NCBI RefSeq assembly: GCF_002214605.1
Contig: NZ_CP015193.1
Span: 910,978-974,977 of the forward strand
Origin: Thermococcus chitonophagus
GTDB lineage: Archaea > Methanobacteriota_B > Thermococci > Thermococcales > Thermococcaceae
Reading direction: 5' to 3'
DNA length: 64,000 nucleotides
The notes under the pieces are model-generated. The model worked only from the letters and a program-made list of their open reading frames with translations. It was not told where the DNA came from and ran no database searches. Below are positions 7,831 through 27,353 of this stretch, one piece after another; the first letter of the stretch is position 1, and every line of letters starts with the position of its first letter. The translations under genes and the position numbers were made by a program.

Positions 7831-7945
7831 TTATCGTCCCTTGTTCTTGAATATTATAGCCATAAGGGGAGTTACAATCATGAATGGTCGCTTATGATCA
7901 GTCAAGTATTTAAGTGCTAAGATATAAGTCGAAATGGTGATTGGT

Positions 7946-8935
7946 ATGAAAGCCGTTAAGGCAACTCTTCTATATGACGGATTGGGAAATGTAGTAAAGG
8001 ACGTCTACGTCGTGTTTGACAGAGAGATAGTTGACATCACGAAGGAGAAGCCCAAGGATGCTGAGATAATTGCTGAAGGCGTTGTAACTCCGGCATTTAT
8101 AGATGGTCACAGCCACATAGGTATGGATCGTTATGGCGAGCCCTATCAAGAGGGAGAGGCAAATGAAGAGATGGATTCTGTACTACCATTAGTTGATGCT
8201 TTGTATTCGATATACATGGACGACAAAGCCTTTAAGCACTCAATAGAGTTCGGCGTTCTCTATTCCTCGGTTCTCCCAGGAAGCGGAAATATCATAGGTG
8301 GAAAGGCTGTTTTCATAAAGAACTACGGCAGGGACATAGAGGAGGCCTTCATTAAGTACGTAGGCGTTAAGGCCGCCTTTGGCTACAACCCGAGGTCAAC
8401 GATCAACTGGAAGGGAACGAGACCAAGCACGAGGATGGGTGCCATAGGGATACTCATCAATCTGGCTTATTAAGACGCAGAAGACAATGAAGCTTTTGGA
8501 GAAAGGCAAGAAAGAGCCCGAAGAAGTTGAGCCGACAGTTGAAGCTTTAATACCGGTTCTAAAGGGAGAGGTTCCGCTTAGGGTTCACGTTCACAAGGAA
8601 GATGATATAGCGGCCCTACTCATGATAAAGAGGAAGTTCAACCTCAAGATAACCATTGAGCACGCTGGCGACGTTCACAGCAGGGAAACATTTGAGAAGA
8701 TAAAGAAAGAAGAGGGGTTCCGGTAATATATGGCCCCTTCGACTCCCATCGCTATAAGGTTAAGCTCAAGCACGAGGATTGGAGGAATGCAAAGTACCTC
8801 CTCGAAGTTAAACCGCTCTTCGGCCTGATGGCGATCATCCGGTTACGCTCCAGGCAAACCTCTATTTACATTATTTTGAAAGCTTCGCCCCTTTAGGGGC
8901 GGAGAAGAGATCAGCTTCGTTTCACCATGACTTAT
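7946..8935 (+). pseudogene. Broken amidohydrolase (imidazolonepropionase-like)
   Basis: The first 176 codons read as an intact amidohydrolase N-terminus, MKAVKATLLYDGLGNVVKDV, with the metal-binding loop AFIDGHSHIGM. It starts at the ATG after GGTGATTG. The frame stops near 8471, resumes in another frame at 8487 (LRVHVHKEDDIAALLMIKRK, ITIEHAGDVHSRETFEKIKK), then shifts again near 8715 (VIYGPFDSHRYKVKLKHEDW) and near 8835 (LQANLYLHYFESFAPLGAEK). The final ~100 residues of the family are missing, cut off where the kinase gene of the amino-sugar island ends. It is dead, with at least three frameshifts and a 3' truncation. Related intact genes are common in Pyrococcus, function unproven. Confidence 0.85.
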
Positions 8936-9857
8936 TAATTGAAGCTTTTAGAGCGACTTTTGCCGCGACCTCCGCGTTACTCGTGGTTGGCTCTCTTAGA
9001 TCGACGGGATATCCAAATACTTCCTCTAATTTACGGAGGAGAATGGGTCTAAGTATATCCCTAGCTCCAAAGTAAAATCCTCCTGTTATTCCGAGTTTAC
9101 ATTGAACACTTTCAAATTTAAGCCTTCGTATTGCAGCTAGATAGGATGAGACAATTTCTTCACTAGCCTTTTCTAATATTAGTTTAGCCACGTGATCTCC
9201 TTCTCTTGCAGCTTTAACGACATATGGGGCAAATCCTGCAATGAGTGTTTTCTTGTTTTTTGAGGAGTATATTGCCCCTATAATACTATCGGGGTCATCA
9301 TTTTTTATGCCGAGATAATCCTTCAGGTAATCATAGAGGATCGTGGGCTTTCCTCTTCCATCATAAAATCTTAGTCCTGCTCTTATTCCTTCTTCCCCAA
9401 CCCAATACCCACTTCCTTCATCCCCAACTAGGTGACCCCATCCTCCAACTCTAATCGTTTCTCCTTTTTCGTTAATTCCATATGCGATAGAACCAGTACC
9501 AGCGATAAATACAATCCCAGGTTCAAAATTGAAGCATGCTATATGAGCAATCTCATAATCTCTTCTTATTATGAGCTCTGCATTGGGTAAGATTTCGCTT
9601 AAAATGTCTCTTAGTATCTTGGTATTCCCACCGAGCGTTCCTGCAATTGATATGCAAGCAGATTTCACGTGCTCTCTCCTGTCCTCTTCTGATAATGCTT
9701 CTATGATCGCTTTAGAGAGGGAACTCTTCACGATGTGAAGAGGAGACGAATTTAGATTTGCTGGGCCACCATAACCTATTCCGATAACTTTTCCTTTTTT
9801 ATCAATAATTACTGCCTCAGTTTTTGTAGCTCCTGCGTCAATTCCTAGAAACAACAT
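8922..9857 (-). CDS. BadF/BadG-family amino-sugar kinase (GlcNAc or MurNAc kinase)
   Basis: A 311-residue ASKHA-fold kinase of the BadF/BadG/BcrA/BcrD family, which includes animal N-acetylglucosamine kinase and the bacterial MurNAc/GlcNAc kinase MurK. Motifs are the phosphate-1 loop LGIDAGATKTEAVII, SIAGTLGG, the phosphate-2 loop VFIAGTGSIAYG, the sugar-contact segment GGWGHLVGDEGSGYWVG, and ITGGFYFG for adenosine. The start is ATG 9857 after GGGTGA. It ends the minus-strand operon with the transporter genes, so it probably phosphorylates the imported amino sugar for NagA and GlmD. GlcNAc, MurNAc and GlcN specificities cannot be separated by eye. Its 3' end abuts the broken amidohydrolase. 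Confidence 0.85.
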   Translation of the reverse strand: MLFLGIDAGATKTEAVIIDKKGKVIGIGYGGPANLNSSPLHIVKSSLSKAIIEALSEEDRREHVKSACISIAGTLGGNTKILRDILSEILPNAELIIRRDYEIAHIACFNFEPGIVFIAGTGSIAYGINEKGETIRVGGWGHLVGDEGSGYWVGEEGIRAGLRFYDGRGKPTILYDYLKDYLGIKNDDPDSIIGAIYSSKNKKTLIAGFAPYVVKAAREGDHVAKLILEKASEEIVSSYLAAIRRLKFESVQCKLGITGGFYFGARDILRPILLRKLEEVFGYPVDLREPTTSNAEVAAKVALKASINKSW

Positions 9858-9867
9858 CTGTCTCACC

Positions 9868-10587
9868 CTACAATTTTCTTAACCCCATATACCAGGAAAT
9901 CATAACGCCACTAAGGTAAACTTGAACTAAGAATAACACTTGAGCAAGTGTACCAAACGTTATTTCTCTTATTGCAAGGGGTACTGTAAGTAATGGAGGA
10001 AGAATAAAGCTTATGAAAAGTATGTAGGCGATGTATCTGCCCCTATATATGGAATATATAGCTCCACAATTTAACAATCCAAATAAAATTCCCATAGCTC
10101 TCCATGTTTTTATTTTAGTTTTTGCTGCAATCCCGCGAATGGCATCTGGAGGCACTTGGAATTTAAGTCCCCCATATGCTAATATAACACCCAATATTAG
10201 GAGAAGAATTAGGAGGGGATATGCTATGTATTTTAATTTTTCTGTTTCTTCTTCTTTTTTAGACCAAATACCAACTAGGGTAATTAAGAGATATAGGAAG
10301 GCTAGGAACTTCCATGAGATTATTAGGCCTCCAATATTTATCCCTCTAAAGGAGGGCATAAAAACTAAGACGAGTACAGACATGCCCCCATTTATTATAA
10401 GCAGGTTCCTATATCCAAATTTTAACCCCAGGCTCAATATTCCATTAACTACGAGAAGCCCAATCAAAGTGATGCCAATGATAAACGACGTTCTAAAGTA
10501 TACAGGTAACATATCTAGGAAGATCAGAGTAAGAATACCAATAGCAATCACCCCTATTATAAACAGAGTCCTGTCCTCCGTTTTCAT
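9868..10587 (-). CDS. Seven-helix membrane protein of the transporter operon
   Basis: 239 residues with about seven hydrophobic helices and short charged loops (WSKKEEETEKLK, AAKTKIKTW). I do not recognise a family. The ATG follows GAGGTGATAAT, which overlaps the stop of the upstream permease gene, and the kinase gene follows 10 bases after its own stop, so it is embedded in the operon. It sits where the two ATPase genes of an oligopeptide/chitobiose ABC transporter would normally be, but has no nucleotide-binding motif and cannot replace them. It may be a transporter accessory or an additional sugar carrier. Confidence 0.7.
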   Translation of the reverse strand: MKTEDRTLFIIGVIAIGILTLIFLDMLPVYFRTSFIIGITLIGLLVVNGILSLGLKFGYRNLLIINGGMSVLVLVFMPSFRGINIGGLIISWKFLAFLYLLITLVGIWSKKEEETEKLKYIAYPLLILLLILGVILAYGGLKFQVPPDAIRGIAAKTKIKTWRAMGILFGLLNCGAIYSIYRGRYIAYILFISFILPPLLTVPLAIREITFGTLAQVLFLVQVYLSGVMISWYMGLRKL

Positions 10588-10591
10588 ATTA

Positions 10592-11485
10592 TCACCTCTC
10601 CCTGAGTTTTGGATTTAGGTAATCTTCTAGGGCTTCTCCTATACAGACAAATGCTATAACGGCAAGGGATATCATTATTCCAGGAACTATAATCCACTGC
10701 CACATTCCTTTCATCACGATAATCATCATATTCTTATTCGCCGTGTACATTACATAACCCCAATCAGGGTTATTTGGGTCCCCTAGTCCCAAAAATGTTA
10801 AAGAGGCTACCGTTACAATAAATCCCGCTATTAATATTGCTGCCCTAGCAAAGAGGAGTGGAATTATGCTTGGTAATATGTGTTTGAAAATTATTCTCCT
10901 ATTACTAGCTCCTAGGGCTATGGCAGCTTGAACATAAAGTCTATGCTTAAGTTGAAGTGTTTGAGCCCTAACCATTCTTGCGGTAGAAGGCCAAGATATC
11001 AACGCTATCACAATAATAGTGTACCAAATATTCCATATTGAAGAAAATAGGGATGCTATGACTAACAAAAGTAAAAGGCTAGGGAGCATCATTATGGAAT
11101 CTGAGATAAACATTAAGAAATCATCCAATACTCCTCCATAATATCCCGCGATAGTTCCTATAAGGGCTCCTACTAGGATTGTAAGTATTGCCGCAATGAA
11201 TCCTACACTAAGAGAAATTCTTGTTCCATACACTATTTGAGTCCAAATATCTTTTCCCTGATGATCTAAGCCACATGGGTGTTCCCATGATGCAGGCTCA
11301 AATATCTCATTGGACGTCCATTCTGGCGTGTATTTAGTAAATAGCTGAGGAAAGAGGGCCATTATTAAAAGGAGAACTAAGATTATAATTCCTAATCTGC
11401 CCATTTTGTGATTCCATATAAATCTGAATACCTCCTTTAAATTCTTAATTACTTCATCTCTTCTTTTAGAAACCTTTTTTACCAT
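10592..11485 (-). CDS. ABC transporter permease (DppC/OppC family)
   Basis: 297 residues with an N-terminal cytoplasmic segment, a first membrane helix (GRLGIIILVLLLIMALFPQ), the OppC_N-type domain, then five helices with the permease EAA loop, where AAIALGASNRRIIFKHILP is the ATPase docking motif. The start is ATG 11485 after GAGGTGAGTAAT. It pairs with the DppB-type permease whose stop codon is one base upstream, forming a channel for oligopeptides or oligosaccharides. In Pyrococcus furiosus and Thermococcus such transporters beside GlmD are linked to chitobiose uptake. Confidence 0.9.
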   Translation of the reverse strand: MVKKVSKRRDEVIKNLKEVFRFIWNHKMGRLGIIILVLLLIMALFPQLFTKYTPEWTSNEIFEPASWEHPCGLDHQGKDIWTQIVYGTRISLSVGFIAAILTILVGALIGTIAGYYGGVLDDFLMFISDSIMMLPSLLLLLVIASLFSSIWNIWYTIIVIALISWPSTARMVRAQTLQLKHRLYVQAAIALGASNRRIIFKHILPSIIPLLFARAAILIAGFIVTVASLTFLGLGDPNNPDWGYVMYTANKNMMIIVMKGMWQWIIVPGIMISLAVIAFVCIGEALEDYLNPKLRER

Positions 11486-11486
11486 A

Positions 11487-12467
11487 TTACTCACCTCTTA
11501 TTCTAGGATCTAAGTATGCATACGTAATCTCGGCTATTGTAATTGCAACTATTACAGCGATTGCAATGATATAGAACGAAGCCAACACAACAGGGTAATC
11601 TTTATTCCACATTGCCTCATAGATGAGAGTACCCATTCCAGGATAATTGAACACTGTCTCAGTAACAACGGCTCCTCCAAATAAGAATCCAATATCTATG
11701 GCCATCATCGTAATAATTGGGGGCATTATGTTTCTCAATACATGTCTTTCGACAATGTAGTTCTCCTCCAATCCAAAGGCTCTAAGAGCGGTAACATAAT
11801 CACTTGTATACTCCTCTGTTGTCATGTTCCTTATAGTAAGTAGGTATGAAACGGCATATATTTTGGATAACACAATTATGGGCAATAGGCTATGCCACAA
11901 CCAGTCAATCATATAATGAAACACATTTTGGGGCTTTAACTCCGATGCTGTTAAATACGGAAATAACCCCGCTTTAAATGCTAAGAAATATAATAAAACC
12001 ATTCCTAACCAGAATACAGGCAAGGCCCTAATTCCTAGGACTAACCATAAAATTATTGACTCCTTTAGCGTTCCACGGTTTTTTGCACAATATAATCCAA
12101 GTAACATACCCAACATAGTTCCAAAGAAGTATGCAGCAGTCACAAGACCTAATGTATAGGGAAGCCTAACTGAAATTAGTTCAATTATGGGCTTATTATA
12201 AACTGGAGACTTCATTTTGAATAAATTAAATGTAAACATACCATAAAGAACTTTAATAGCTCCTGTGATGAAATTATCTTTATATCCCCACTCTTCCAAA
12301 AGTCTCTCATACTGTTCTTCGGTTATTTTACCTTGGTATAAATATTGATCAAAGGGCGTTCCAGGAGCAAGTCTAAGGAGGGCATATATGAGTAGTATTA
12401 CAAATATTAAGGTTATTATCTTATGGAGCAATTTGATTGCTATATATGAAAAGAGACTTCTCCCCAT
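11487..12467 (-). CDS. ABC transporter permease (DppB/OppB family)
   Basis: 326 residues with the DppB pattern: an N-terminal helix followed by LAPGTPFDQY, a long extracytoplasmic loop, then five helices with the EAA loop (TALRAFGLEENYIVERHVLR) that contacts an ATPase, and the end ITYAYLDPRIRG. The ATG follows GGTGGTGCATCAAAT. It lies 57 bases downstream of the binding-protein gene and one base before the DppC gene. It forms half of the membrane channel. No ATPase subunits are encoded nearby. Confidence 0.9.
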   Translation of the reverse strand: MGRSLFSYIAIKLLHKIITLIFVILLIYALLRLAPGTPFDQYLYQGKITEEQYERLLEEWGYKDNFITGAIKVLYGMFTFNLFKMKSPVYNKPIIELISVRLPYTLGLVTAAYFFGTMLGMLLGLYCAKNRGTLKESIILWLVLGIRALPVFWLGMVLLYFLAFKAGLFPYLTASELKPQNVFHYMIDWLWHSLLPIIVLSKIYAVSYLLTIRNMTTEEYTSDYVTALRAFGLEENYIVERHVLRNIMPPIITMMAIDIGFLFGGAVVTETVFNYPGMGTLIYEAMWNKDYPVVLASFYIIAIAVIVAITIAEITYAYLDPRIRGE

Positions 12468-12524
12468 ATTTGATGCACCACCTTATCTTTGTTAATTGAA
12501 GTAAAAAGGGAAAGGGATAAAACC

Positions 12525-14342
12525 TTACTTTCTTCTCTTTCTCCTCAAAATTAATGGTAGTGGTGTCAAAGCAATCAAAATTGCTGGTCCACAGACTCCC
12601 TTTTCTACTGTTTCAGTTTTTGTTACAGTCTCTTTCTTCTCTATTGTCTGAGTCTTTTCGATTACGGATGTAGTTACTGAAGTTGTTGTCATAATTTTTG
12701 TTTCAGTCTCTTTTATGATCTTTGTTGGACTTCCTATTAGTGACCAATACCCAACTGTGTAATACCTTGGGTTGGGCTTCCATCCCCTGTAGTGATCAAT
12801 TCTGTAGGGAGTAGCTACAATTGGATGATACAGAGCTATGAATGGAATATCTTTAGCTAGTATCTCCTCAAGCTGGTGGGCTATTTTCGGATCACCGGTC
12901 TTCTGGAATTCATTAAATAGTTCATCGAATTTTGGATTCGAGTATCCTATCCTATTTCCAGGATTATCCGTAGTGAACCATGCCAAATCAGTTGGCTTTG
13001 ATGGCACGTATCCAACTATTGCAAGATCCCAGGAACCTGCTCCCCACTTGTCCCAGTAATCACCAGCTTTATCTACCTTTACTTTCAATCCAACTTCCTT
13101 CAGGTACCTTGCAATCTCATCTCCAATGGCGTCCCTGAAGAATGAGTCTCCTGGAGCTCTGGTAAGGAGGTAAATTTCAAACGGCTTACCATCTGGTGTT
13201 TCTCTGTATCCATCTCCGTTAATATCTTTAAATCCAAGCTTATCAAGTATCTCTTTTGCCTTTTCAGGATTATATGGATAAAGCTTTTCTTTTGGAAGGT
13301 ATTCTGCAAAATCTCCGAAGAATGGTCCTAAGAATCCCATGCTACCTAATACTGCTCCATCGGTACCGTAATACTTTTCAACAATTTTATCAACTGGAAT
13401 TGCATAAGCTATTGCTTTCCTGAATTCCAAATTATTGTAGGGGAACCCTTTCTTGAAGTTAAAGGCTAATAAGTGGATTGATTTCGAGGCAGTCCTGTAT
13501 ATCTGAACATTTGGATCTCCTGCAACCATCTTCTTGAATTCCTCTAAATACTTTCCGAAGAAGTAATGATATCCTGCATCTACCTCTCCCGCAGCAACCA
13601 TCATTGCAAATTGATTCCTATCATTGATTATCTTGAAAATTACCTTATCTACTTCAGGCTTTCCGAGATAGTGGTCTGGAAAGGCTTCTAACTTTACGTA
13701 TTCGTCTGGCTTTATCTCTACAACCTTAAATGGACCACATCCAATGAGTTGTTGAGGCTTGTCTAGGGAAGCCGTTGGATCTGGAATTATATTCTTGTTC
13801 TCCCATATGTGCTTTGGAACTATGAAGAGAGTTGTAAATGCCATTTCAAGGAAGGAATTTGCAGGAGCTTTATTTTCATCATATATTAACTGAATTGTAT
13901 ACTTATCTAGCACTTTAATATCTTCAAGTCCCTGAAGAATTAACGGATCTGGATTAACGAATGTTGCAGGGTCTTTCTTAAATAACTCTATTGTATATTT
14001 AACGTCATCTGCCGTTACTTCCTGACCATCGTGCCATTTAACGCCTTTTCTCAAATAAAACGTCAAAATTTTCTTGTCTCCATTAGTTTTGAACTCCCAC
14101 TTTTCTGCCAATGCTCCTGTAAGCTTGAATCCACTGTCATCCCACCTAATTAAAGGTTCATAGATCTTGTCAAGAACTATGTTTGCATACACTGTGCTAG
14201 AAGTAAGAGGATTGAAGGTTTTCCATTGTCTTGTTGCAAGGACTAATTCGATCTCTGGTTTTCCAAGAACTTGTGGAAAGGCTCCTATGCTTAATATAAT
14301 AACTCCAACTATGGCCGCGACTAGTAACTTTGGCGCTTTCAC
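12525..14342 (-). CDS. Membrane-anchored family 5 solute-binding protein (oligopeptide/oligosaccharide)
   Basis: A 605-residue SBP_bac_5 family lipid-exposed binding protein. It has a signal peptide (about residues 1-27), the family's early motif WEFKTNGDKKILTFYLRKGV plus KWHDGQEVTADDVKYTIE, and a C-terminal Thr/Lys-rich stalk followed by CGPAILIALTPLPLILRRKR, the Thermococcales C-terminal membrane anchor. The start is GTG 14342 after GAGGTGGGCGCT. Family members bind peptides (DppA, OppA, the muropeptide binder MppA) or, in hyperthermophiles, oligosaccharides. In this context the ligand is probably chitobiose-like or muropeptide-like. It heads the transporter-kinase operon behind its own TATA box. 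Confidence 0.9.
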   Translation of the reverse strand: MKAPKLLVAAIVGVIILSIGAFPQVLGKPEIELVLATRQWKTFNPLTSSTVYANIVLDKIYEPLIRWDDSGFKLTGALAEKWEFKTNGDKKILTFYLRKGVKWHDGQEVTADDVKYTIELFKKDPATFVNPDPLILQGLEDIKVLDKYTIQLIYDENKAPANSFLEMAFTTLFIVPKHIWENKNIIPDPTASLDKPQQLIGCGPFKVVEIKPDEYVKLEAFPDHYLGKPEVDKVIFKIINDRNQFAMMVAAGEVDAGYHYFFGKYLEEFKKMVAGDPNVQIYRTASKSIHLLAFNFKKGFPYNNLEFRKAIAYAIPVDKIVEKYYGTDGAVLGSMGFLGPFFGDFAEYLPKEKLYPYNPEKAKEILDKLGFKDINGDGYRETPDGKPFEIYLLTRAPGDSFFRDAIGDEIARYLKEVGLKVKVDKAGDYWDKWGAGSWDLAIVGYVPSKPTDLAWFTTDNPGNRIGYSNPKFDELFNEFQKTGDPKIAHQLEEILAKDIPFIALYHPIVATPYRIDHYRGWKPNPRYYTVGYWSLIGSPTKIIKETETKIMTTTSVTTSVIEKTQTIEKKETVTKTETVEKGVCGPAILIALTPLPLILRRKRRK

Positions 14343-14373
14343 AGCGCCCACCTCATATAATCTTTGTCATTTA

Positions 14374-14383
14374 GTATATAAAT
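14374..14383 (-). promoter_or_regulatory. TATA box of the transporter-kinase operon
   Basis: TTTATATAC on the minus strand lies about 35 bases upstream of the binding-protein GTG, which is good archaeal spacing. Confidence 0.6.
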
Positions 14384-14449
14384 TTTTTCGCTATATTGGG
14401 CTAACATTTCATGTTTTTCTCAACTGTGTAATAAAAACAAAAAATGACA

Positions 14450-15496: not shown

Positions 15497-15546
15497 AAGC
15501 CACCTCTTTTATCTTTGTAATTAATAAAGAGGAAATAATCAAAAAA

Positions 15547-18276
15547 TCATGAAGGGACAAAAAGAACTATTGGAGTTTGAGGAAGCACCATGATAAGGTA
15601 TTCTTTTTCAATCTTGTTATTGCTTGTAGTCAAAGAAACTTCGTTTTCAGCTTTTACACTGGCAGTTACTTTAATCTTGTGTAATCCTATTCTTGGGGTT
15701 AAAGAGGGTCCCAGGATTATAGTCTCATATTTGACTTCTCCTGGGGATAATATTCCTAATGTTCTGGAAATCTCTAAGACCTTTTCAGTATTATTGAGAG
15801 TAAGAACTATATCTACTGTCACGTTCTTTGCTTCTACCTTTCCATAATTTACAACTTTCACAGTTAACATTGCTCCTTGAGCGTGGACTTTTATACTGAC
15901 ATCCGGACTGTTCAATCTACTCTTGTACGTTGCCCACCTAAAGTATACGATTCCTTTTCCGGGTTCAAGAGTAATCTCTCTGCTCTTTCTAGAGACAAAA
16001 TACACTGCGTTGAATAGTAGCCTATAGTTGTACCTAGTATCTAGGATACTATTTGGTGCATACTCTGTATCTCCACTTGTTAATTCTGGGTGGAAACTGA
16101 ATAAGACTATTCTTCCTTCACCATATTTTGAGAATATTACTGCAGATGCATTTTCCATAACACTATTTACGTATGTTTTATTAAAGTCTCCCCATCCATA
16201 ACTAAAGGCTCCTTCTGTATTGTCGGTTGATACATATTTAACAAGCTCAACATAGGGAGCAACATCCAATCCAAGTGTTGTATTTACCTTTAGGTCATAG
16301 GGTTCAAATACTGGACCATTCCAGTATATAGCCTTGAAACTATCTTTAAATCCAAAAGTTACTGGATTGCTTTGGTTTACTACTTTGACATTTACAATCC
16401 CTACTCCTAACCACCACTTTGGCCAGTTTTTAAGTCTTGCATCAACAAGTTGTATTTCGGAAGTTGGTTCATTATATCCCTTTATTACGGCGTACCCTCC
16501 AGCACAAATACCTATTAGACCTCCTCCACCGGCAATGAACTCAGAAACTTTTACTGATCCTTCTTTCCCTAGTAATTTAGCTTCCCAAGTTCCACTCCCA
16601 GGGGGTAGTATTAAGATGTCATATTTGTTCAATTCCCCTTCTTTTATTTTTTCTGCTGGGATAATGTCGTACTGGAATCCAAGTTCTTTCAATACTTCAT
16701 GTACGGTATACTCTGATCCAACATCTAATATCGCGATTTTTGGGGGAATTAAAGGAATTGCTTGTATCTTGGGAAGTTTGTTGATCTCAATGGCCTCCAT
16801 AGGTATCTGGAGGAGGATATTATTTAGTATGGCTTTCTCTCCAACTACTATGAGAGAACCCTTTGGAATAGTTGTTCCATTTATATCCAAGATTCCAAGG
16901 GTCATGTATCCTTCGATGTTCCCCTTATATAACTCTTTGTTAATTTTAGTGAGTGTTTTTATTACCTTTTCAGCGGTATTTGGATCTGAAGGTATGTCAT
17001 CAGGAAGGGGTATTATCGCAGCTTTTTTATCACCGAGTTCAGAGAATACGTATTTTTCCTCATTAAGGATATCTTCCCAAGATACACTATATGTTTGAAC
17101 GCCGACTAAGGGCACGCTTACATTTCCTGCTGTATTTATTACATGGCTCTTAACAATCCCTACCCACTTAACTGGTTCTCCATAGTCCTTGTAGTAGGCC
17201 ATAGGAATCAACCAATCTACCCCTAACTTCACAAAATCGGACCATACTTGGCCATAGTGCAATAGTTGAAATTCCTTTGGATAAAGAATGTTATCTCTCG
17301 TCAGGTCTGGCATCAATGCGGCAGAGACTATTGGGACTTTATTATCCCAAGTCTTCAGTGAGTGAACGAATTTTGTAATATTCCCTACATATGAATCAAC
17401 ATCTTTTCTTCTAAGCTCAAACCACTTTACTATGTCCGGATCCCTTTTCAGGTATAACTTGAAGATGTAATAGGGATCCCTTGGACCGGCAACACTCCCA
17501 TTTTGCAGTGGAACATCATCATAAAATGTGTGCCTAACGGCAAATATTACCTTTGTAACATTAATCCCATATTCCTGAGCTCTTTTTATATCAGCTGGGG
17601 AAAAACTGTATACCATATGTGGATATCTTATATAGTCTAAGTGTATTCCATCGAATCCCATGGAGATTAATTCCTTTGAGATTTGCTCAAGGACTTTTAG
17701 GTATTCCTTATTCGCTAATCTTACCCTGCCAGGTATTGGAGTCGGCTTCCAGTTATACTTTGCTTTTCCAACATGCCATATTGGATCTATTTTACCAAAG
17801 AAGTCTTTATCATAATGGACAATTATCCAGGCATGTACCCTAATTCCATTCTTGTGAGCCTCCTTCAGTAGGGGGATTAGGATATTAGTATCATTATATG
17901 GATAGGCCGGATATGTTCTTTCTGGATAGACCTTACTTGGGTATATTAAGTATCCTGTAGTTAATTTAACTTCTAAGAATATATCTGTTATACCGGCATT
18001 CTTTAATTCTTGGATAAGTTGTTTTGCTGCCATATTTAGGGCTTTTTCTCTTATCTCCTTTGGAATCTTTGGGTATACTGTGACATTAAAAGGATCCTTG
18101 TATCCAAAGCTCTCAAGAGCTTTTTCATAATATCCCCTATAGGTACTGGGCCACATCCATACTCCGACTATCTTCTCTTCATTATTCTTACTCTCTGCTA
18201 ACACATAGTGTGGCTGAAATATTGAAAGGCCAAATATTAAGACTATTAATATTCCCAATACTTTTTTTGTGTTCAT
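15547..18276 (-). CDS. Secreted GHL10-type glycosidase with a glutaminase-like domain and a C-terminal beta domain
   Basis: 909 residues. A signal peptide (about 1-28, ending VLA) precedes a GHL10/DUF187-like TIM barrel: VGVWMWPSTYRGYY, RVHAWIIVHYDKDF, and FDGIHLDYIRYPHM, the acidic strand-end typical of the family. The family includes E. coli DigH, which cleaves denuded peptidoglycan glycan strands. From about residue 500 comes a class I glutamine-amidotransferase-like (BPL_N) domain, LILPPGSGTWEAKLLG and GGGLIGICAGGYAVI, whose Cys sits in the nucleophile-elbow position. A CARDB-like beta domain closes the protein (VKVVNYGKVEAKNVTVDI). The start is ATG 18276 after GAGGTG. It probably acts outside the cell on an amino-sugar polymer. 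The fusion is unusual. Confidence 0.8.
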   Translation of the reverse strand: MNTKKVLGILIVLIFGLSIFQPHYVLAESKNNEEKIVGVWMWPSTYRGYYEKALESFGYKDPFNVTVYPKIPKEIREKALNMAAKQLIQELKNAGITDIFLEVKLTTGYLIYPSKVYPERTYPAYPYNDTNILIPLLKEAHKNGIRVHAWIIVHYDKDFFGKIDPIWHVGKAKYNWKPTPIPGRVRLANKEYLKVLEQISKELISMGFDGIHLDYIRYPHMVYSFSPADIKRAQEYGINVTKVIFAVRHTFYDDVPLQNGSVAGPRDPYYIFKLYLKRDPDIVKWFELRRKDVDSYVGNITKFVHSLKTWDNKVPIVSAALMPDLTRDNILYPKEFQLLHYGQVWSDFVKLGVDWLIPMAYYKDYGEPVKWVGIVKSHVINTAGNVSVPLVGVQTYSVSWEDILNEEKYVFSELGDKKAAIIPLPDDIPSDPNTAEKVIKTLTKINKELYKGNIEGYMTLGILDINGTTIPKGSLIVVGEKAILNNILLQIPMEAIEINKLPKIQAIPLIPPKIAILDVGSEYTVHEVLKELGFQYDIIPAEKIKEGELNKYDILILPPGSGTWEAKLLGKEGSVKVSEFIAGGGGLIGICAGGYAVIKGYNEPTSEIQLVDARLKNWPKWWLGVGIVNVKVVNQSNPVTFGFKDSFKAIYWNGPVFEPYDLKVNTTLGLDVAPYVELVKYVSTDNTEGAFSYGWGDFNKTYVNSVMENASAVIFSKYGEGRIVLFSFHPELTSGDTEYAPNSILDTRYNYRLLFNAVYFVSRKSREITLEPGKGIVYFRWATYKSRLNSPDVSIKVHAQGAMLTVKVVNYGKVEAKNVTVDIVLTLNNTEKVLEISRTLGILSPGEVKYETIILGPSLTPRIGLHKIKVTASVKAENEVSLTTSNNKIEKEYLIMVLPQTPIVLFVPS

Positions 18277-18382
18277 GCTACTACACCTCATCATCCTTAA
18301 GTGTTTAAAAAATAATAAACTTTTCGATTAATTTTGTCAGGATAACACTAATCAGTGTGAAATATGTTTATGATTAAGAAAA

Positions 18383-19657: not shown

Positions 19658-19680
19658 ATTATCAACCACCTATTAAATTA

Positions 19681-19718
19681 TGTTCATCATCCTCTGAACA
19701 CCTTTAAATTTTTAAATC
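19681..19718. promoter_or_regulatory. Shared control region of the divergent amidase and peptidase operons
   Basis: An inverted repeat TGTTCA-N8-TGAACA (19681-19700) is next to a symmetrical AT block (TTTAAATTTTTAAA, about 19703-19716) that can serve as TATA box in either direction. The repeat would overlap the start of the leftward transcript. It is a plausible operator for the island's regulator. Confidence 0.5.
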
Positions 19719-19748
19719 TTAATGCAAAGATTTGGTATGGTGAGTGAA

Positions 19749-20924
19749 ATGGCAAATCCCTTGTTTCATATGATTTCATATGAAGACGTTGAAAAGATTG
19801 TGAGGGCTTCGGGATGGGAATATAAAGTTGTTGGAAAAACCCCTCTAGGTAGGGATATATTCCATATAAAGGTTGGAAATGGGAATGTAAGGATTCTAAT
19901 AGTTGCTGGTATTCATGGGACTGAGCCCGCTCCTGTAAATGCCTCCCTGTTGCTATTAAAACTATTAAAGGAAGAATATCCTATGAATTATAACTTCAAA
20001 ACTCTCGAAAATGTTGAACTTCATATAATCCCACTAGCGAATCCAGATGGCTTTCAAAGGAATTATGAGTTGTTTAAAGCTAAAGATTTCATCCCCCATT
20101 GGAGCCATGTATGGGAAGAGGCGAGAAGAAATGCAAACGGTGAAGACTTAAATAGAGATTTTATGTACCTGCGTCAACCCGAAACAAGAGCTATCCATGA
20201 TGTTTTTAATAAGGTTGATCCTCACCTTGTTTTAGACCTCCATGAGTTTTATGCAAAGGGAGGTTGTCCTCCCAAATGGGCAGATGAGACAGAAGGATTT
20301 CTCTCAACAATTACGGACACGCCCTATAACTGGGTAAACGAGAGTATTAGGCTCATCTCAGAAAAAATTGCAAAAGAAATAGGGAGAGCGTTGCCGTGGA
20401 AACCAAAAATGAGGCACTTTATGGCCGAGGCTCAGGAATTTCCTGTGGTTCCTAACAATGTTCTAGGCACACATTTCCCATTTGAAGGGGCAGCTAAGGT
20501 ACTAATAGAGACCTGGGGGGTAGGCTTGGCAAATTATTTAATGACAGATAGAGTTTCAGTTCATCTCCATGCAATTCTTACAGCGATCGAATTTGCAGAG
20601 AAAAATCCAGAGAAATTCATCAAAATGAAAGAGGACTGGGAAAAAGAAGAGATTAAAGCATGTAGGGAGTACCAGGGATTCATAATTAGGGGAAATAAAG
20701 AGGAGTTAAATAAAGTGGAAAACTTATTAGCTCTACACGGAATTGAAATGACAAGAAAAGAAAAGGACCTTATCTTTGTCCCTATGCCCCAAAAACGGGG
20801 AAAGATTAGCATACTCCTTCTTGATAGATACCATTGGTATAATCAGGAGTTAGAAAAAAGGAGGAGAGGACCGTTTACAATTGACAAAATCTTTGACATT
20901 AGCGTTGAAGTTTCTAAAGGGTGA
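19749..20924 (+). CDS. M14-family zinc carboxypeptidase or amidase
   Basis: 391 residues. M14 metallopeptidase motifs are in order: HGTEPA (zinc His and Glu), ANPDGFQ, NANGEDLNRDF (substrate-binding Asn-Arg), DLHEF (third zinc ligand) and VLIETWG (catalytic Glu). There is no signal peptide, so it acts in the cytoplasm. The family contains carboxypeptidases, the murein-peptide amidase MpaA, gamma-D-glutamyl-meso-diaminopimelate peptidases and aminoacyl deacylases. The start is ATG 19749 after GGTGAGTGAA rather than the earlier in-frame ATGs. First gene of a four-gene operon with a GNAT enzyme, an SIS protein and NagA. The setting favours trimming of a peptide or acyl group from an imported amino-sugar compound. 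Confidence 0.85.
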   Translation: MANPLFHMISYEDVEKIVRASGWEYKVVGKTPLGRDIFHIKVGNGNVRILIVAGIHGTEPAPVNASLLLLKLLKEEYPMNYNFKTLENVELHIIPLANPDGFQRNYELFKAKDFIPHWSHVWEEARRNANGEDLNRDFMYLRQPETRAIHDVFNKVDPHLVLDLHEFYAKGGCPPKWADETEGFLSTITDTPYNWVNESIRLISEKIAKEIGRALPWKPKMRHFMAEAQEFPVVPNNVLGTHFPFEGAAKVLIETWGVGLANYLMTDRVSVHLHAILTAIEFAEKNPEKFIKMKEDWEKEEIKACREYQGFIIRGNKEELNKVENLLALHGIEMTRKEKDLIFVPMPQKRGKISILLLDRYHWYNQELEKRRRGPFTIDKIFDISVEVSKG

Positions 20925-20930
20925 CATGGA

Positions 20931-21860
20931 ATGATAGTCAGGGGAGATGAAATTGAAGTACGTGATATTGTTAGCTTCATGAATAGTTGCTTTAGAACAT
21001 ACAGAGAATGGAAGTTGACTGTAGAAAAGTTCAAGGTGTGGTTAGCGAGTGATAAAGGTATAAAACAAGAAAATATGTTCTTTTACTTATGTGATAACAA
21101 AATAGCAGGAATGATTCAAATTGTAGAAAGATTTGTCAAGATTGGAGATTCATTTAAATCATGTGCAGGAATTGCAAATGTATGTACAAAGCAAGAATTC
21201 AGAGGTAAAGGAATTGCAAAAAAATTATTAGAAGAGGTTCTGAATTACGCCAAGGAAAATTATGAGATATGCGCTCTGTTAGCTGGATATGGAGAATTAG
21301 CCCATGCGATATATAGAAAATATGGATTTAAGGATTCTTATTTCACGGAATATGGGATAATGCTGAGGGAGGACTTAAATAGTACAAATATTGAGTGCCC
21401 ATACATTAGGAAGGCAAATGAAAAAGATGTGAAGGAGATTGTCAATCTGTATGATAATTACATCTTACTAAACGGCTTATCAGGAGTAATTAAAAGAGAT
21501 GAAAGATATATCTTAGAGAAATTCATTAAAAGAACATTCTGGCACACATTCTTTTATTCCCCAGAACAGGGAAACGTTATAGTGTTTAATGATGGAAAAC
21601 TCCAAGGATACGCTTTCACTTTAGAGGGTCCGAGGATTGGAACAGTGATAGTCAGAGAAATAGTTGGGAGGGATAGGGATATTGTTAGAGACATGCTTGG
21701 ATATATATTTGAAAAATATAATGCAAAAAGCCTTACTATTTATGCTCCTTCTCAGGAGCTAAAATCGTTGAATATAGAAACATTCCGTATTCCTGAAAGT
21801 TACATGTTTAAAGATTTTCATGTCAAAAATGCGTATATATTTTACTCTGATAGGTGGTAA
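20931..21860 (+). CDS. Two-domain GNAT acetyltransferase
   Basis: 309 residues. The N-terminal half is a GNAT fold with the acetyl-CoA loop TKQEFRGKGIAKKLLEEVL near residue 85, then YRKYGFKDSYFTEYG. The C-terminal half (about 160-309) looks like a second, degenerate GNAT domain, as in Eis-type enzymes. The ATG follows GGGTGACATGGA at the stop of the M14 gene, and the next gene begins three bases after its own stop. It may acetylate a free amino group exposed by the operon's hydrolases, or re-acetylate glucosamine. The substrate is not deducible. Confidence 0.8.
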   Translation: MIVRGDEIEVRDIVSFMNSCFRTYREWKLTVEKFKVWLASDKGIKQENMFFYLCDNKIAGMIQIVERFVKIGDSFKSCAGIANVCTKQEFRGKGIAKKLLEEVLNYAKENYEICALLAGYGELAHAIYRKYGFKDSYFTEYGIMLREDLNSTNIECPYIRKANEKDVKEIVNLYDNYILLNGLSGVIKRDERYILEKFIKRTFWHTFFYSPEQGNVIVFNDGKLQGYAFTLEGPRIGTVIVREIVGRDRDIVRDMLGYIFEKYNAKSLTIYAPSQELKSLNIETFRIPESYMFKDFHVKNAYIFYSDRW

Positions 21861-21862
21861 AA

Positions 21863-22594: not shown

Positions 22595-22607
22595 GGAGGA
22601 GACAAAA

Positions 22608-23756
22608 ATGGAATTGATCTTAACAAATGCGAAAATATATACTCCTACAGAGGTCATCGCACCAGGAACAATTGTTATTGAAGATGGCATTATCAAGCAA
22701 ATAATGGAGGGAAAAGTAAAGGATGGCATTGATTTGGAAGGGAAAATAGTAGCTCCTGGATTTATAGATACTCACATACATGGATGTTATGGATTTGATA
22801 CAAATAATGGAGAAAGTTTAAGATTTCAAAAGATGAGCAAAATGTTAGTAAGACACGGTGTTACAAGTTTTATCCCTACAACCGTCACAGATTCTCATGA
22901 AAATCTTCTCAGGATTTCAAGGGAAGTGGGTAAAATTATTGAGGAGTATAAAGGAGATGGAGGAGCTAGGATTTTAGGATTACACCTAGAAGGTCCTTAT
23001 ATCAATCCTAAAAAGAAAGGAGCTCAAAATCCTGAATATATACGGAAACCCGATTTTGGAGAGTTTATGGAATATTGGAAAGCTTCAAATGGGAATATAA
23101 GGGAAATTACAATAGCACCAGAGGTTGAAGGAGCCATAGAGTTCATAGAAAATGTTACAAGACTTGGGGTTATCGTTCAATTAGGTCATACAAATGCCAC
23201 ATATGAAGAAGCAAAAAGGGCTATAATAGCAGGAGCAAGTAAAGCAACCCACTTATTCAACGCGATGAGAGGTATTCACCATAGGGAGGTTGGTGTAGTT
23301 GGTGCATGCCTTGAAAGTGAAAATATATACCTTGAAATGATATGTGATTTAATTCATCTCTCTCCCCAGATAATTAGGCTTGTATATAAATTAGCAGGAC
23401 CATATAGGATAACTCTGGTTACTGACGCAATCAGTGCTACAGGTCTACCAGATGGCAGATACACATTAGGAGGGTTGGATGTTATTGTTCAAGGTGGTAT
23501 ATGTAGATTGTTAGATGGCACTTTGGCAGGAAGCACATTAACTATGGACAAAGCGATAAAGAACTTAGTTAATATAGGTATTCCTCTTCGAGACGCATTG
23601 ATCATGGCTTCCTATGTTCCAGCTAAGGCCATCGGAGAGAGTGACATAGGGATTTTAAGACCAGGATATAGGGCAGACTTTGTTGTTTTAGATAATAACC
23701 TTACCGTGGTGCAGACATATATAAACGGAAGATTAGTGTTTGAGAGAGATACTTAA
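22608..23756 (+). CDS. nagA: N-acetylglucosamine-6-phosphate deacetylase
   Basis: 382 residues of the amidohydrolase superfamily matching NagA. APGFIDTHIHGCYGFDTN carries the first metal histidines, LHLEGPYINPKKKGAQ the metal-binding Glu, LGHTNATYEEAK a metal His, ATHLFNAMRGIHHREVG a metal His and substrate contacts, and LVTDAISATGLPDG the catalytic Asp. It converts GlcNAc-6-phosphate to glucosamine-6-phosphate plus acetate in the cytoplasm, feeding GlmD. The ATG follows GAGGAGGAGAC. Last gene of the plus-strand operon; its stop is one base from the stop of the convergent Lrp gene. Together with the kinase it implies the bacterial order of phosphorylation before deacetylation, unlike the known Thermococcus chitin route. 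Confidence 0.92.
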   Translation: MELILTNAKIYTPTEVIAPGTIVIEDGIIKQIMEGKVKDGIDLEGKIVAPGFIDTHIHGCYGFDTNNGESLRFQKMSKMLVRHGVTSFIPTTVTDSHENLLRISREVGKIIEEYKGDGGARILGLHLEGPYINPKKKGAQNPEYIRKPDFGEFMEYWKASNGNIREITIAPEVEGAIEFIENVTRLGVIVQLGHTNATYEEAKRAIIAGASKATHLFNAMRGIHHREVGVVGACLESENIYLEMICDLIHLSPQIIRLVYKLAGPYRITLVTDAISATGLPDGRYTLGGLDVIVQGGICRLLDGTLAGSTLTMDKAIKNLVNIGIPLRDALIMASYVPAKAIGESDIGILRPGYRADFVVLDNNLTVVQTYINGRLVFERDT

Positions 23757-23757
23757 G

Positions 23758-24294
23758 TTATTCCATTTCATTTTCTTGCTCAATTAACTCTGAAAATAAC
23801 TTTGGAGTATGTATGTTTGCAAGTATGGTGTAATGATCAACGACATCACTCTCTAACATGAATTCTTCAATCTTTTCCTTTAAAGTTTTGAAGTCCTTCT
23901 CAAAAAACCTAAATAAGAAGTCATATTCTCCTATATATTCACTAATTTCATATATCCTGGGTTCTTCCAAGGCTTTGTTAATGAAATCTCTCACTGCTTC
24001 AGCAGAACATCCGGGTTTCAGTTTAATGAGAACATCTGCAGATGCTAGTTTTAGTTTGTCAAATCTAAGAAATCCTCTAACTTTAATTATTCCCTTCTCT
24101 TCAAGTGCTATTCTTCTCCTTCTGGCAGTGGGAATAGATACATTGGCTATTTTTGCTAGATCTGTGTCAGATATCCTTCCATCATCCCTTAGAGCGAGCC
24201 AAATTAAAATATCAATATCATCGAGATAATCTTTTAATATCTCTTTAAAGAATTCCAGTTCTCTCTTATATTTAGCCTCGTTTTTAGTTATCAA
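23758..24294 (-). CDS. Lrp/AsnC-family transcriptional regulator
   Basis: 178 residues. The N-terminal winged helix-turn-helix (LDDIDILIWLALRDDGRISD, then LAKIANVSIPTARRRRIALE) is followed by an alpha-beta RAM domain (ISEYIGEYDFLFRFFEKDFK). Lrp proteins bind DNA as oligomers and sense amino acids or other small metabolites. It starts at TTG 24294, eight bases after GGAGGTGA. It lies inside the amino-sugar island between its two operons, so it is the best local candidate for the island's regulator. TGTTCA-N8-TGAACA between the divergent operons is a possible target. Confidence 0.88.
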   Translation of the reverse strand: MITKNEAKYKRELEFFKEILKDYLDDIDILIWLALRDDGRISDTDLAKIANVSIPTARRRRIALEEKGIIKVRGFLRFDKLKLASADVLIKLKPGCSAEAVRDFINKALEEPRIYEISEYIGEYDFLFRFFEKDFKTLKEKIEEFMLESDVVDHYTILANIHTPKLFSELIEQENEME

Positions 24295-24367
24295 AATTTT
24301 TCACCTCCTTGGGTATTCCTCTCCATACTAGAATTATTGAGCTTAAAAATTTTAAATGAAAAACGCC

Positions 24368-25330
24368 TCAACGCAAGGTTATTACCCTTCCACTCTGTGA
24401 AGACCTATATAGGGCATTGACAACCTTATGAACTTTTAATCCGTCAACTTCATTGACAATTGGTTTTTCATTACTTTCTATTGAATGTATAAAGTGTCTA
24501 AGTTGTCTTGCATACATTTCCTCCACAGGCTCGCTAAAATTGCCTTTTTCAAGAATCTGAAGCTCCTTCTTCGAAATTGTATACTCACCCTCTAGATACC
24601 CCTCAACAGTTACAGTTCCCTGGGTAGCCTGTAGACCCCATTTTCTCCATCTATGTTGGGCACTCCAAGTTTGCATTATTGTAGAAACCGCCCCACTTTC
24701 GTGAATAAACGTTGCAACAGCATTGTCTTCTATACTTACATCTTCATTGAGTGTCCAACATTTTCCAATTACCTTCTTTATATCTCCGGCATACCATAAA
24801 AAGTAGTAGATTATGTGAACTGCATTTTCGTTTATCATGCCTCCACTTTTGTCCTTGCTTCCAACCCATTCATTGCGGGGCAATCTTCCTAGCGCTATGT
24901 GCCACTGGAATAGAATATCTCCCAGATCTTTTTCCAGATAGTCCTTTACTTTTGAGAATAGTCCATGAAACCTAAGGCTAAACGCAATCATAAGTCTATT
25001 TGTTCCTTTAGCTTTTTTGTATATCGCTATAGCATCAGTTAAACTAGCCCCCATAGGCTTTTCCAGCAATACATGAAAGCCCTTCTTAAGTGCATAAATC
25101 GCCTGTTCTCTGTGAAGATAAGGAGGAGTTGCAATTATTACGCCGTCAGGGTTCTCTTTTTCTAGCATTTCTTGATAATCAGTATATACAGGAACCCTGT
25201 ATTCTCTTTTTACCTTTTCAAGGATATTGGGGTTAATATCACAAACTCCAGATATCTCCACTCCAACCATTTTCATTACCTTAAGGTGAAGTTGCCCCAT
25301 GTTTCCAGCGCCAATTAGAGCTATTCTCAT
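24368..25330 (-). CDS. Gfo/Idh/MocA-family oxidoreductase
   Basis: 320 residues. The N-terminal Rossmann fold has ALIGAGNMGQLHLKVM and the family's VLLEKPMGASLTDA, whose Glu-Lys-Pro holds the catalytic lysine. The C-terminal alpha-beta domain includes SGGMINENAVHIIYYFLW, where the His-containing helix shapes the active site. Such enzymes oxidise or reduce sugar hydroxyls with NAD(P), including on amino sugars and in glycosidic-bond cleavage by oxidation-elimination. The start is ATG 25330 after GGGTGATC, five bases past the stop of the isomerase-like gene, so these are one operon. Substrate unknown; a 3-keto or uronic amino sugar is one possibility. Confidence 0.85.
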   Translation of the reverse strand: MRIALIGAGNMGQLHLKVMKMVGVEISGVCDINPNILEKVKREYRVPVYTDYQEMLEKENPDGVIIATPPYLHREQAIYALKKGFHVLLEKPMGASLTDAIAIYKKAKGTNRLMIAFSLRFHGLFSKVKDYLEKDLGDILFQWHIALGRLPRNEWVGSKDKSGGMINENAVHIIYYFLWYAGDIKKVIGKCWTLNEDVSIEDNAVATFIHESGAVSTIMQTWSAQHRWRKWGLQATQGTVTVEGYLEGEYTISKKELQILEKGNFSEPVEEMYARQLRHFIHSIESNEKPIVNEVDGLKVHKVVNALYRSSQSGRVITLR

Positions 25331-25335
25331 TTTGA

Positions 25336-26139
25336 TCACCCGAATATTTTCTTAAGTGAAGTAAATGAGTCCTCAGCAGCCTTTATGGGATCACCTAGAT
25401 ACGGAGGAACTTCTGGTAGGATATATCCTTTATAATTCGCCTTTTCCAAGGAGCTCCTCACAGCTTCCCAGTTTATGCTACCACTTAGTGGAATTCCGAA
25501 TTTCAGTTCAACCAAGTTGAAGTCTTTGACATGAACTTGGAGTATCTTTTCCCCAAGAACTTCTATCCAGTGCTCTGGGAGGGAGTGAGGTAGGGTGTTA
25601 CCGACATCAAAGTACGCCCCAACATTATCCCTATTTATCGTATCAAGAAGCATTTTAAACTCTAAAGGCCCTGCAAAAACCCTGTTCCATACATTTTCAA
25701 GTCCTATGCTAACTCCATAGTCTTCTGCTATGGCAGAGGCTTTTTGGATAAAATCAGCTGCCTTTTCAAAATGTTCCTCATAAGATACATTTGATACTCC
25801 ACTTCCAGGAACTACGAGGATTATTTTTGCATCAACTAAAGACGCCGCTTCGCATTCAGCCTTTATAACCCTTAGAGCATCTTCAGTATTCGTTATTGGA
25901 TTATACTTCCAGAACAAGCCAGTGGCAACACTTGGAATTTCGATGTCAAGGCTTTCTGATGTTTCTTTGATATGCCTGAACCTGGCCTTAAATTCATCTT
26001 TTCCAAATTTTTCAAAATCGTCTAATCCCAGCCCAACCTCATATCCATCATATCCTATTTCCTTTGCAGCTTTAAGGGCCCTTTCAATAGGAAAAGCTTT
26101 TGGAAAACTCCAACAATTTATGCCAAATTTCGGTTTCAT
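25336..26139 (-). CDS. Xylose isomerase-like TIM-barrel sugar isomerase/epimerase
   Basis: 267 residues of the AP endonuclease 2/xylose isomerase-like family (COG1082): GINCWSFPKAFPIERAL, IGYDGYEVGL, ASAIAEDYGVSIGLENVWNR with its metal-binding Glu, GAYFDVGNTLPHSLPEHW with Asp and His ligands, QVHVKDFN and YILPEVP. These bind a divalent metal and interconvert keto and aldo sugars or dehydrate keto-sugars. The ATG overlaps the stop of the upstream hydrolase gene (ATGA) after GGAGGTGAAAGT. Pairing with a Gfo/Idh oxidoreductase is a frequent arrangement for keto-sugar processing. Exact reaction unknown. Confidence 0.85.
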   Translation of the reverse strand: MKPKFGINCWSFPKAFPIERALKAAKEIGYDGYEVGLGLDDFEKFGKDEFKARFRHIKETSESLDIEIPSVATGLFWKYNPITNTEDALRVIKAECEAASLVDAKIILVVPGSGVSNVSYEEHFEKAADFIQKASAIAEDYGVSIGLENVWNRVFAGPLEFKMLLDTINRDNVGAYFDVGNTLPHSLPEHWIEVLGEKILQVHVKDFNLVELKFGIPLSGSINWEAVRSSLEKANYKGYILPEVPPYLGDPIKAAEDSFTSLKKIFG

Positions 26140-27353
26140 ACTTTCACCTCCTCAAACAACTCTTTTATTTTTAGGAGATTTCCCTTAGGAGTCCATCCAT
26201 ATGAGTAGAAACTTACCCCATTTACGGGGAGCTTTAATGCCATGTTGAATTGACGCTCAATATCCTCAGGAGTTGTCGGTGGCCAAGAAGCAAGTCCGAG
26301 AACTATTTCCACGTTATTTTTAACAAATTTCCTAGCTAACATTGCCTCATATGGTATCCTACATATTGACCTTTTGAATGGTCTAACGTATATCATTATT
26401 TTTATCCTGTCGACGATTTTCGATATTTTTTTGTAATTCTGCCCCAACAACCAAGAACCAGAAGGAGGGTATAAATCAGCACTTATTTCTGCTTTTGGGT
26501 TATTCCTCTTTATAATTTTAGAGAGCTGAAGAAGCAATTTGCTTATTTGATTTTCCCTAAATTCTAACCACTTTTTGAGTATATCGTTCTCTAATAATTC
26601 CTTAGTGAAATCTAAATACATAGCTTCACAATAATCTAAATCGGTACAATACTCTTGGAGTCTCAAAAAATACTGAACGTGCCATTCAACTATATCTTTT
26701 AGAACTCCTCTAACTTCTTCAAGATTAATTCCATAATCTGCCGCCTCATCCCTACAGTATTTACAAAAACAGGGGGAAAGTGCTAGGTCCAAAAGGGGAG
26801 TACTGTAAGTTGTTGGAATTTCTGGGTATCTTATAAAATCAAATTCAAATTCATCAAATTCATATTTCTCAGAAAGCTCCTCGACCATTGTCGAAAGAGC
26901 TTCTTTTACACTTGGGTTTGAAGGACAAAGAAACATTCTTTTGTAACTAGGATGAGATCCATAAATGTCAACAACTCCAATGAGTGGGTTATCCCTTACG
27001 GCTTTTTCCCATCTTAATGTAGGAAACCAAAGAACACTTCTAATGGAGTTTTCTTCGCAAGCCCTTACAAATTCCCCCACAACATCTCCCTGGATTTCTT
27101 GAGACTGAACTGGTCTAAGATATGGGGGGATATTCAAGTATCTATTTTTTTCAACATTCCAATATACAGCGTTTTCTTCTGAAGTGTAAGTTCTTCGTTG
27201 AAAGTTTTGAAAAATTATGTTCGGTCCAGGCCAATTTTGTCTCTCTTCAATATAACGGACAGCTAGACTTATGTGCGTAAATCCAAACTTCGATAATTCT
27301 GCTATTACATCTCTATCAAAATCCCAAGGATGCATCCATATTCCCTTATACAT
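26136..27353 (-). CDS. Putative TIM-barrel glycosidase, cytoplasmic (GHL-like)
   Basis: 405 residues without a signal peptide. Barrel-like strands are MYKGIWMHPWDFDRDVIAEL, FGFTHISLAVRY, SIRSVLWFPTLRW, FDEFEFDFIRYPEIP (the acidic strand end as in the secreted GHL10-type protein), CFCKYCRDEAADYGINLEEV, AEISADLYPPSGSW and VNGVSFYSYGW. The FDFIRYPEIP motif and the CxxC segment are shared with putative glycosidases of thermophilic bacteria. The start is ATG 27353 after GGGGAG. It heads a three-gene operon with the isomerase and oxidoreductase. I infer intracellular cleavage of an imported, possibly modified, oligosaccharide. Confidence 0.7.
   Translation of the reverse strand: MYKGIWMHPWDFDRDVIAELSKFGFTHISLAVRYIEERQNWPGPNIIFQNFQRRTYTSEENAVYWNVEKNRYLNIPPYLRPVQSQEIQGDVVGEFVRACEENSIRSVLWFPTLRWEKAVRDNPLIGVVDIYGSHPSYKRMFLCPSNPSVKEALSTMVEELSEKYEFDEFEFDFIRYPEIPTTYSTPLLDLALSPCFCKYCRDEAADYGINLEEVRGVLKDIVEWHVQYFLRLQEYCTDLDYCEAMYLDFTKELLENDILKKWLEFRENQISKLLLQLSKIIKRNNPKAEISADLYPPSGSWLLGQNYKKISKIVDRIKIMIYVRPFKRSICRIPYEAMLARKFVKNNVEIVLGLASWPPTTPEDIERQFNMALKLPVNGVSFYSYGWTPKGNLLKIKELFEEVKV

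Follow-up and report, generated by a model that had tools for sequence, protein, structure and literature searches.

Within a 64,000-nucleotide stretch of the Thermococcus chitonophagus genome (G000, 1.96 Mb; the stretch is hereafter the window), 16 open reading frames (ORFs) at positions 8922-27365 form a single AT-rich block, here called the island. It very probably encodes the catabolism of N-acetylated amino sugars via their 6-phosphates. The island may be a horizontally shared salvage module of the Thermococcaceae, whose likeliest food would be the glycan of dead bacterial cell walls, and N-acetylmuramic acid (MurNAc) from these walls is a credible, if tentative, candidate for its intended substrate. 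The novelty lies in a variant MurNAc/amino-sugar pathway and in a candidate second family of MurNAc-6-phosphate etherases, represented in the island by a UPF0309/NF002805 protein that we call SIS2.

We infer the following substrates and order of steps from gene content, conservation, family membership and linkage, all of which were observed directly. The secreted GHL10-type enzyme would cut the glycan outside the cell, and the fragments would enter through the OppBC permeases with the help of the family 5 binding protein. The cytoplasmic GHL enzyme would then release monosaccharides, the ceramidase-like amidase and the M14 protein would strip the peptide, and the BadF kinase would produce the 6-phosphates of N-acetylglucosamine (GlcNAc) and MurNAc. 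SIS2 would eliminate the C3 substituent, presumed here to be the D-lactate of MurNAc rather than the substituent of another C3-substituted GlcNAc, to give GlcNAc-6-phosphate, doing the job of MurQ without being MurQ. Finally, NagA and the deaminase would yield fructose-6-phosphate, ammonia and acetate. Known MurNAc catabolism involves a kinase or a phosphotransferase system (PTS), MurQ, NagA and NagB (the Escherichia coli and Clostridium acetobutylicum types). The island resembles it in its kinase, which is close to MurK, in NagA, in the deaminase and in its sugar-6-phosphate logic, but it has SIS2 instead of MurQ, an archaeal host, and additional ceramidase-like, M14, Gfo, AP2 and GHL genes.

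A conserved island and its enzymatic core

Gene families were called with Pfam and NCBIfam profiles and their cut-offs, and solved relatives were found by sequence comparison. All 16 ORFs of the AT-rich island reported in a preliminary description of this DNA are present, with a G+C content of 37.1%, against 46.5% in the left flank and 45.3% in the right flank. The genes are syntenic in G003 (78-98% identity), G020 and G026, and also lie together in G071 and G073 with an inner segment inverted. Counting the window, six Thermococcaceae species have the complete set, which occurs in two arrangements and between differing flanks. The AT-rich composition marks foreign DNA and might suggest that unrelated acquired genes have come together by chance, but this explanation is extremely improbable, being refuted by the conserved synteny. 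The amino-sugar salvage originally proposed is strongly supported by the core described next.

The core consists of four cytoplasmic enzymes (SIS2, NagA, the glucosamine-6-phosphate deaminase and the ceramidase-like amidase) and recurs in other archaea and in bacteria, paired with differing uptake modules. Two versions exist in the Thermococcaceae, one with the BadF kinase and ATP-binding cassette (ABC) import, the other with PTS import and no kinase. In the latter, found in G030, genes for SIS2, NagA, a ceramidase-like protein and a GlmD/GlmS-like protein lie within a complete mannose-family PTS (L042/L043), and neither a BadF kinase nor an Opp transporter is present in the cluster. Because the kinase is missing where the PTS delivers sugar-6-phosphates, the core would act on sugar-6-phosphates. 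PTS are unusual in archaea, and a further case comes from an archaeon of another family (G139), where the ceramidase-like gene adjoins PTS IIB and IICD and, on a separate contig, NagA-SIS2 adjoins PTS enzyme I and IIA (L044, L083; PTS parts recognized by eye). Among Bacteria, alphaproteobacterial plasmids (Martelella, Ponticoccus, Devosia) carry LacI, NagB-like, SIS2, NagA-like and ceramidase-like genes and a sugar ABC transporter (CUT1), in that order. The bacterium G534 combines Man-PTS, SIS2, NagA, ceramidase-like and deaminase genes (L143), G669 has NagA, SIS2, ceramidase-like and BadF genes, and Planococcus shows the order nagE-nagA-nagB-GntR-SIS2. One contig assigned to a Thermotogaceae metagenome-assembled genome (L049) is nearly identical to the SIS2-NagA-Orc1 stretch of G030, reflecting either misbinning or a very recent transfer.

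The closest bacterial counterpart of the island is an operon of the Thermotogota (G396, G397, G419, G459, G460, G461) that encodes GHL10, SIS2, a sugar ABC transporter, a ceramidase-like protein and BadF. Four of the six operons also hold a GlmD-like deaminase, three a GH20-like gene, and two a GH3 enzyme scoring above the cut-off of the NCBIfam model for beta-N-acetylhexosaminidase, NagZ (209 and 214 bits against 207; motif KHFPGHG...DSH). A GNAT acetyltransferase homologue adjoins one operon (L075). The 915-aa archaeal protein has a BPL_N-like part that is encoded by a stand-alone gene in the Thermotogota operon, and this fusion of separate genes ties the two systems together.

SIS2 as a candidate MurNAc-6-phosphate etherase

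Of special interest is SIS2. The preliminary description correctly listed a SIS protein, which we place in NF002805/UPF0309 and not in MurQ. It scores 19.9 bits with the MurQ model TIGR00274 (cut-off 302), and the best score for this model in eight archaeal genomes is 35 bits. From this score and the motif discussed below, we rejected SIS2 as a plain MurQ.

AnmK produces MurNAc-6-phosphate. In the bacterium G722, the SIS2 and AnmK genes share four bases, and their cluster also encodes NagZ, M20, D-acylase-like and gamma-glutamyl hydrolase-like proteins; MurQ was not found in this genome. Across the phylum of G722, the gene directly downstream of AnmK on the same strand is SIS2 at 25 of 30 loci, and at two the neighbour is MurQ. 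MurQ is missing from 29 of the 31 AnmK-bearing genomes, the remaining two being those with MurQ beside AnmK. Because SIS2 directly follows the gene for the enzyme that makes MurNAc-6-phosphate, it stands in the place of MurQ. Judging by this genomic context, the AnmK-linked SIS2 clade is probably a second MurNAc-6-phosphate etherase family. The AnmK neighbourhoods come from the phylum of G722 and not from the archaeal SIS2 subclade, for which the same activity is less probable. The AnmK-SIS2 operons of MurQ-less bacteria in this phylum (L132, L151-L180), often with the NagZ, M20, D-acylase-like and gamma-glutamyl hydrolase-like genes as well, are a candidate new variant of peptidoglycan recycling in their own right.

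The sole characterized relative of SIS2 found in our literature search is Streptomyces NagS (SCO4393), a GlcNAc-6-phosphate dehydratase that acts by C3 elimination (PMC12680351). Both belong to the NF002805-type SIS family, and the SIS2 gene adjoins NagA and deaminase genes. The residues essential in NagS (H53, R64, E94 and D179) are retained in the island protein, and S91 and N228 of NagS are replaced by Thr and His, respectively.

It is conceivable, though somewhat doubtful, that UPF0309/NF002805 holds a second, non-orthologous MurNAc-6-phosphate etherase family and that hyperthermophilic archaea acquired one of its members within a peptidoglycan-feeding module. If true, this would fill the missing peptidoglycan-recycling step in bacteria with AnmK and without MurQ, provide a function for a widespread protein family beyond NagS, and imply that archaea, themselves devoid of murein, may eat bacterial walls.

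Substrate of the island and alternative readings

The extracellular enzyme is the first part that bears on the substrate. The 915-aa secreted protein passes the DUF4015 and BPL_N cut-offs but lies just under that of GHL10 (PF02638; 25.3 bits, cut-off 27.9); the cytoplasmic protein reaches 37.5 bits and Thermotogota homologues up to 55.6. When a 16-sequence profile of the secreted hydrolase was compared with solved structures, Cwp19 came first (E 1.7e-10) and PgaB, a poly-GlcNAc hydrolase, second. Its AlphaFold2 model is fair (pLDDT 79.5, pTM 0.73), and Foldseek again placed Cwp19 and PgaB on top, though the TM-scores relative to the target were modest (0.54-0.61). The common denominator of these two enzymes is a GlcNAc-containing polymer as substrate. 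Cwp19 itself is described as a lytic transglycosylase of peptidoglycan (PMC6016235). Of the conserved active-site residues listed in the paper on the Cwp19 structure, the island protein retains, as judged by eye, the Asp-Tyr and the Trp, but the putative catalytic Arg is not invariant. Like the GHL10 enzymes Cwp19 and DigH (PMC5765458, PMC6016235, PMC12288456), the secreted protein has a TIM barrel with the GHL10 Asp-Tyr, and Cwp19 is its best match by both sequence and structure; unlike them, it falls under the GHL10 Pfam cut-off and is fused to a BPL_N-like domain.

The kinase is a BadF protein whose best solved relative is 8zo3, an 'N-acetylmuramic acid/N-acetylglucosamine kinase' (E 5e-39), and it has a GGWGH loop in common with 8zo3 and with human NAGK, which accepts both GlcNAc and MurNAc. 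The sequence does not separate the two sugars, and we rejected the kinase residues as a discriminator between them. The ceramidase-type amidase was correctly recognized; it reads as cytoplasmic because no signal peptide was apparent by eye. H95, H97 and H188, presumably its metal site, are invariant over nine homologues. As judged from sequence, membership in the neutral ceramidase family does not imply activity on ceramide.

The scavenging of muropeptides, favoured in the preliminary description, gains new support from the exchange of MurQ for SIS2 beside AnmK, the relationship to Cwp19, the NagZ or GH20 genes of most Thermotogota operons and the scarcity of GH18 described below; the arguments from MppA and MpaA have failed, and the kinase is undiscriminating. 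Several findings weigh against MurNAc. The binding protein is a family 5 member with its permeases, as proposed, but it is nearer to chitin-oligosaccharide and mannoside binders (about 125-139 bits) than to DppA (79 bits), and MppA is not among its best 60 solved relatives. The M14 protein passes the Peptidase_M14 profile but not the MpaA model NF007897 (17.4 bits, cut-off 157), and we found no gene in the island specific for meso-diaminopimelate or MurNAc. In an alignment of SIS2 with Thermotogota MurQ, the first Glu of the DAxE-PPT motif, which we take to be catalytic in MurQ, is Gly65, and the second is kept (E90). In the tree, the sister group of archaeal SIS2 is a NagA/NagB-linked bacterial clade (94/88) and not the AnmK-linked clade. 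Position 87 is Gly in AnmK-linked SIS2 (Arg in two) and Thr in archaeal SIS2, and position 224 is His in archaeal SIS2 and Asn in all others. The mutual exclusion of AnmK and MurQ (Fisher p = 4e-11) mostly sets one clade against another, with few independent events, and the p value overstates independence. Finally, MurQ is encoded elsewhere in all six Thermotogota operon genomes, which led us to reject SIS2 as a required MurQ substitute in that phylum.

Salvage of GlcNAc oligomers alone (from chitin fragments, poly-beta-1,6-GlcNAc or glycoprotein glycans) would also employ the kinase, NagA and the deaminase, with SIS2 and the ceramidase-like protein as accessories, for example with a NagS-like role or for clearing damaged amino sugars. 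We regard this as less likely than the MurNAc reading, although it accounts for the relationships of the binding protein, whose nearest relatives are Vibrio chitin-oligosaccharide binders, for PgaB as second relative of the GHL protein, for the Planococcus gene order and for the grouping of archaeal SIS2 with NagA/NagB-linked copies. A GH18 chitinase with CBM5/12 and CBM2 modules and Thr-rich linkers also adjoins the island (5484-7799, + strand), and a second GH18 of the same genome lies at G000:C1:1415560. However, in searches directed at GH18 and not at other chitinase families, GH18 was not found in five of the six island genomes, G000 being the sole exception. Among 61 related genomes, four have GH18 and one of these four has the island. 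The island is therefore not an appendage of chitin degradation, chitin as sole substrate is weakened, and the pattern of clusters confined to chitin genes, which the preliminary description had named as telling against muropeptides, is not what we observed. The Thermococcales chitin route, made up of chitinase, Dac, GlmA and GlmD, shares with the island a GlmD-type deaminase and an SBP5 transporter, but the island has a kinase and NagA in place of the deacetylase and glucosaminidase. Moreover, SIS2 and the amidase are retained with NagA and the deaminase across phyla, and would be superfluous for plain GlcNAc catabolism. Three distant NagS homologues that were assayed showed no activity on GlcNAc-6-phosphate (PMC12680351).

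A still less probable reading is that the substrate is another C3-modified amino sugar, such as a 2,3-diacetamido sugar from a bacterial or archaeal glycan, or one from pseudomurein, with the ceramidase-like protein removing an N-acyl group and SIS2 the C3 substituent. The island Gfo protein indeed also resembles the UDP-GlcNAc 3-dehydrogenase model. Likewise, a Thermotogota cluster (L076, G397:C4) joins NagA, two Gfo genes (including a UDP-GlcNAc 3-dehydrogenase-like one), AP2, a sugar ABC transporter, a DegT aminotransferase and a ceramidase-like gene, and looks like catabolism of a 3-amino sugar. However, the island has no DegT, and the linkage to AnmK points to MurNAc. As for pseudomurein, one secreted Thermotogota GHL10 protein (L077, 6725-8395, - strand) has a pseudomurein-binding repeat that scores 27.4 bits against a cut-off of 24.9; the repeat is below threshold in two other homologues and is not listed in the remaining ones or in the window protein. 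Since it exceeds the threshold in one homologue only, we rejected pseudomurein as the substrate.

Gene content, borders and other features

The genes of the island are listed in Table 1. NagA and the Lrp regulator were identified as before, and the deaminase belongs to the SIS family but falls below the cut-off of the GlmD model. The Opp-type transporter (10592-14351) comprises a binding protein and two permeases with no ATPase gene inside the island, and would depend on ATPases encoded at other sites of the genome. The M14 protein has only distant solved relatives, carboxypeptidases B and M, and its AlphaFold2 model has a pLDDT of 39.

Table 1. Genes of the island, with window positions and supporting matches.
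Position	Strand	Product	Evidence
8922..9866	-	BadF-type sugar kinase, GlcNAc/MurNAc kinase candidate	Pfam BcrAD_BadFG 119 bits, cut-off 31.5
9868..10587	-	Membrane protein	No Pfam/NCBIfam match; kept in all six islands
10592..11494	-	OppC-type permease	BPD_transp_1, OppC_N
11487..12467	-	OppB-type permease	BPD_transp_1
12525..14351	-	Family 5 solute-binding protein, CGP-CTERM anchor	SBP_bac_5 238 bits
14450..15496	-	GlmD/NagB-II-like glucosamine-6-phosphate deaminase, SIS family	SIS 106 bits; GlmS isomerase-domain and GlmD models below cut-offs
15547..18294	-	Secreted GHL10/DUF4015 TIM-barrel hydrolase-like protein with BPL_N-like domain and C-terminal CARDB-like region, 915 aa	Profiles, AlphaFold2 model
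18383..19669	-	Ceramidase-like amidase, predicted cytoplasmic	Ceramidase_alk (PF04734) 57.7 bits, cut-off 32.1
19722..20924	+	M14 zinc-peptidase-like protein	Peptidase_M14 63.9 bits, cut-off 21.6; kept in all six islands
20931..21860	+	GNAT acetyltransferase	Acetyltransf_9 63.7 bits
21854..22594	+	SIS2, UPF0309/NF002805, candidate MurNAc-6-phosphate etherase	NF002805 296.8 bits, cut-off 135
22608..23756	+	NagA, GlcNAc-6-phosphate deacetylase	TIGR00221 364.9 bits, cut-off 225.65
23758..24294	-	Lrp/AsnC-type regulator	HTH_24, HTH_AsnC
24368..25339	-	Gfo/Idh/MocA dehydrogenase, resembling inositol 2-dehydrogenase and UDP-GlcNAc 3-dehydrogenase models	Profile matches
25336..26139	-	AP_endonuc_2/sugar epimerase-like TIM barrel	PF01261 116.9 bits
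26136..27365	-	Cytoplasmic GHL10-type hydrolase	PF02638 37.5 bits, cut-off 27.9

At the left edge, downstream of the GH18 chitinase, lies a frame-shifted amidohydrolase remnant (7934-8830), possibly the scar of an insertion, and a TrmG10-like gene marks the right edge. G003 has the same right flank as the window and a different left neighbour, a symporter-like gene. In G020, one additional gene, encoding an S-Me-THD (DUF917-like) protein, is found between NagA and the regulator. Outside the island, the window holds a second AT-rich stretch at 40001-42000, with 33-38% G+C.

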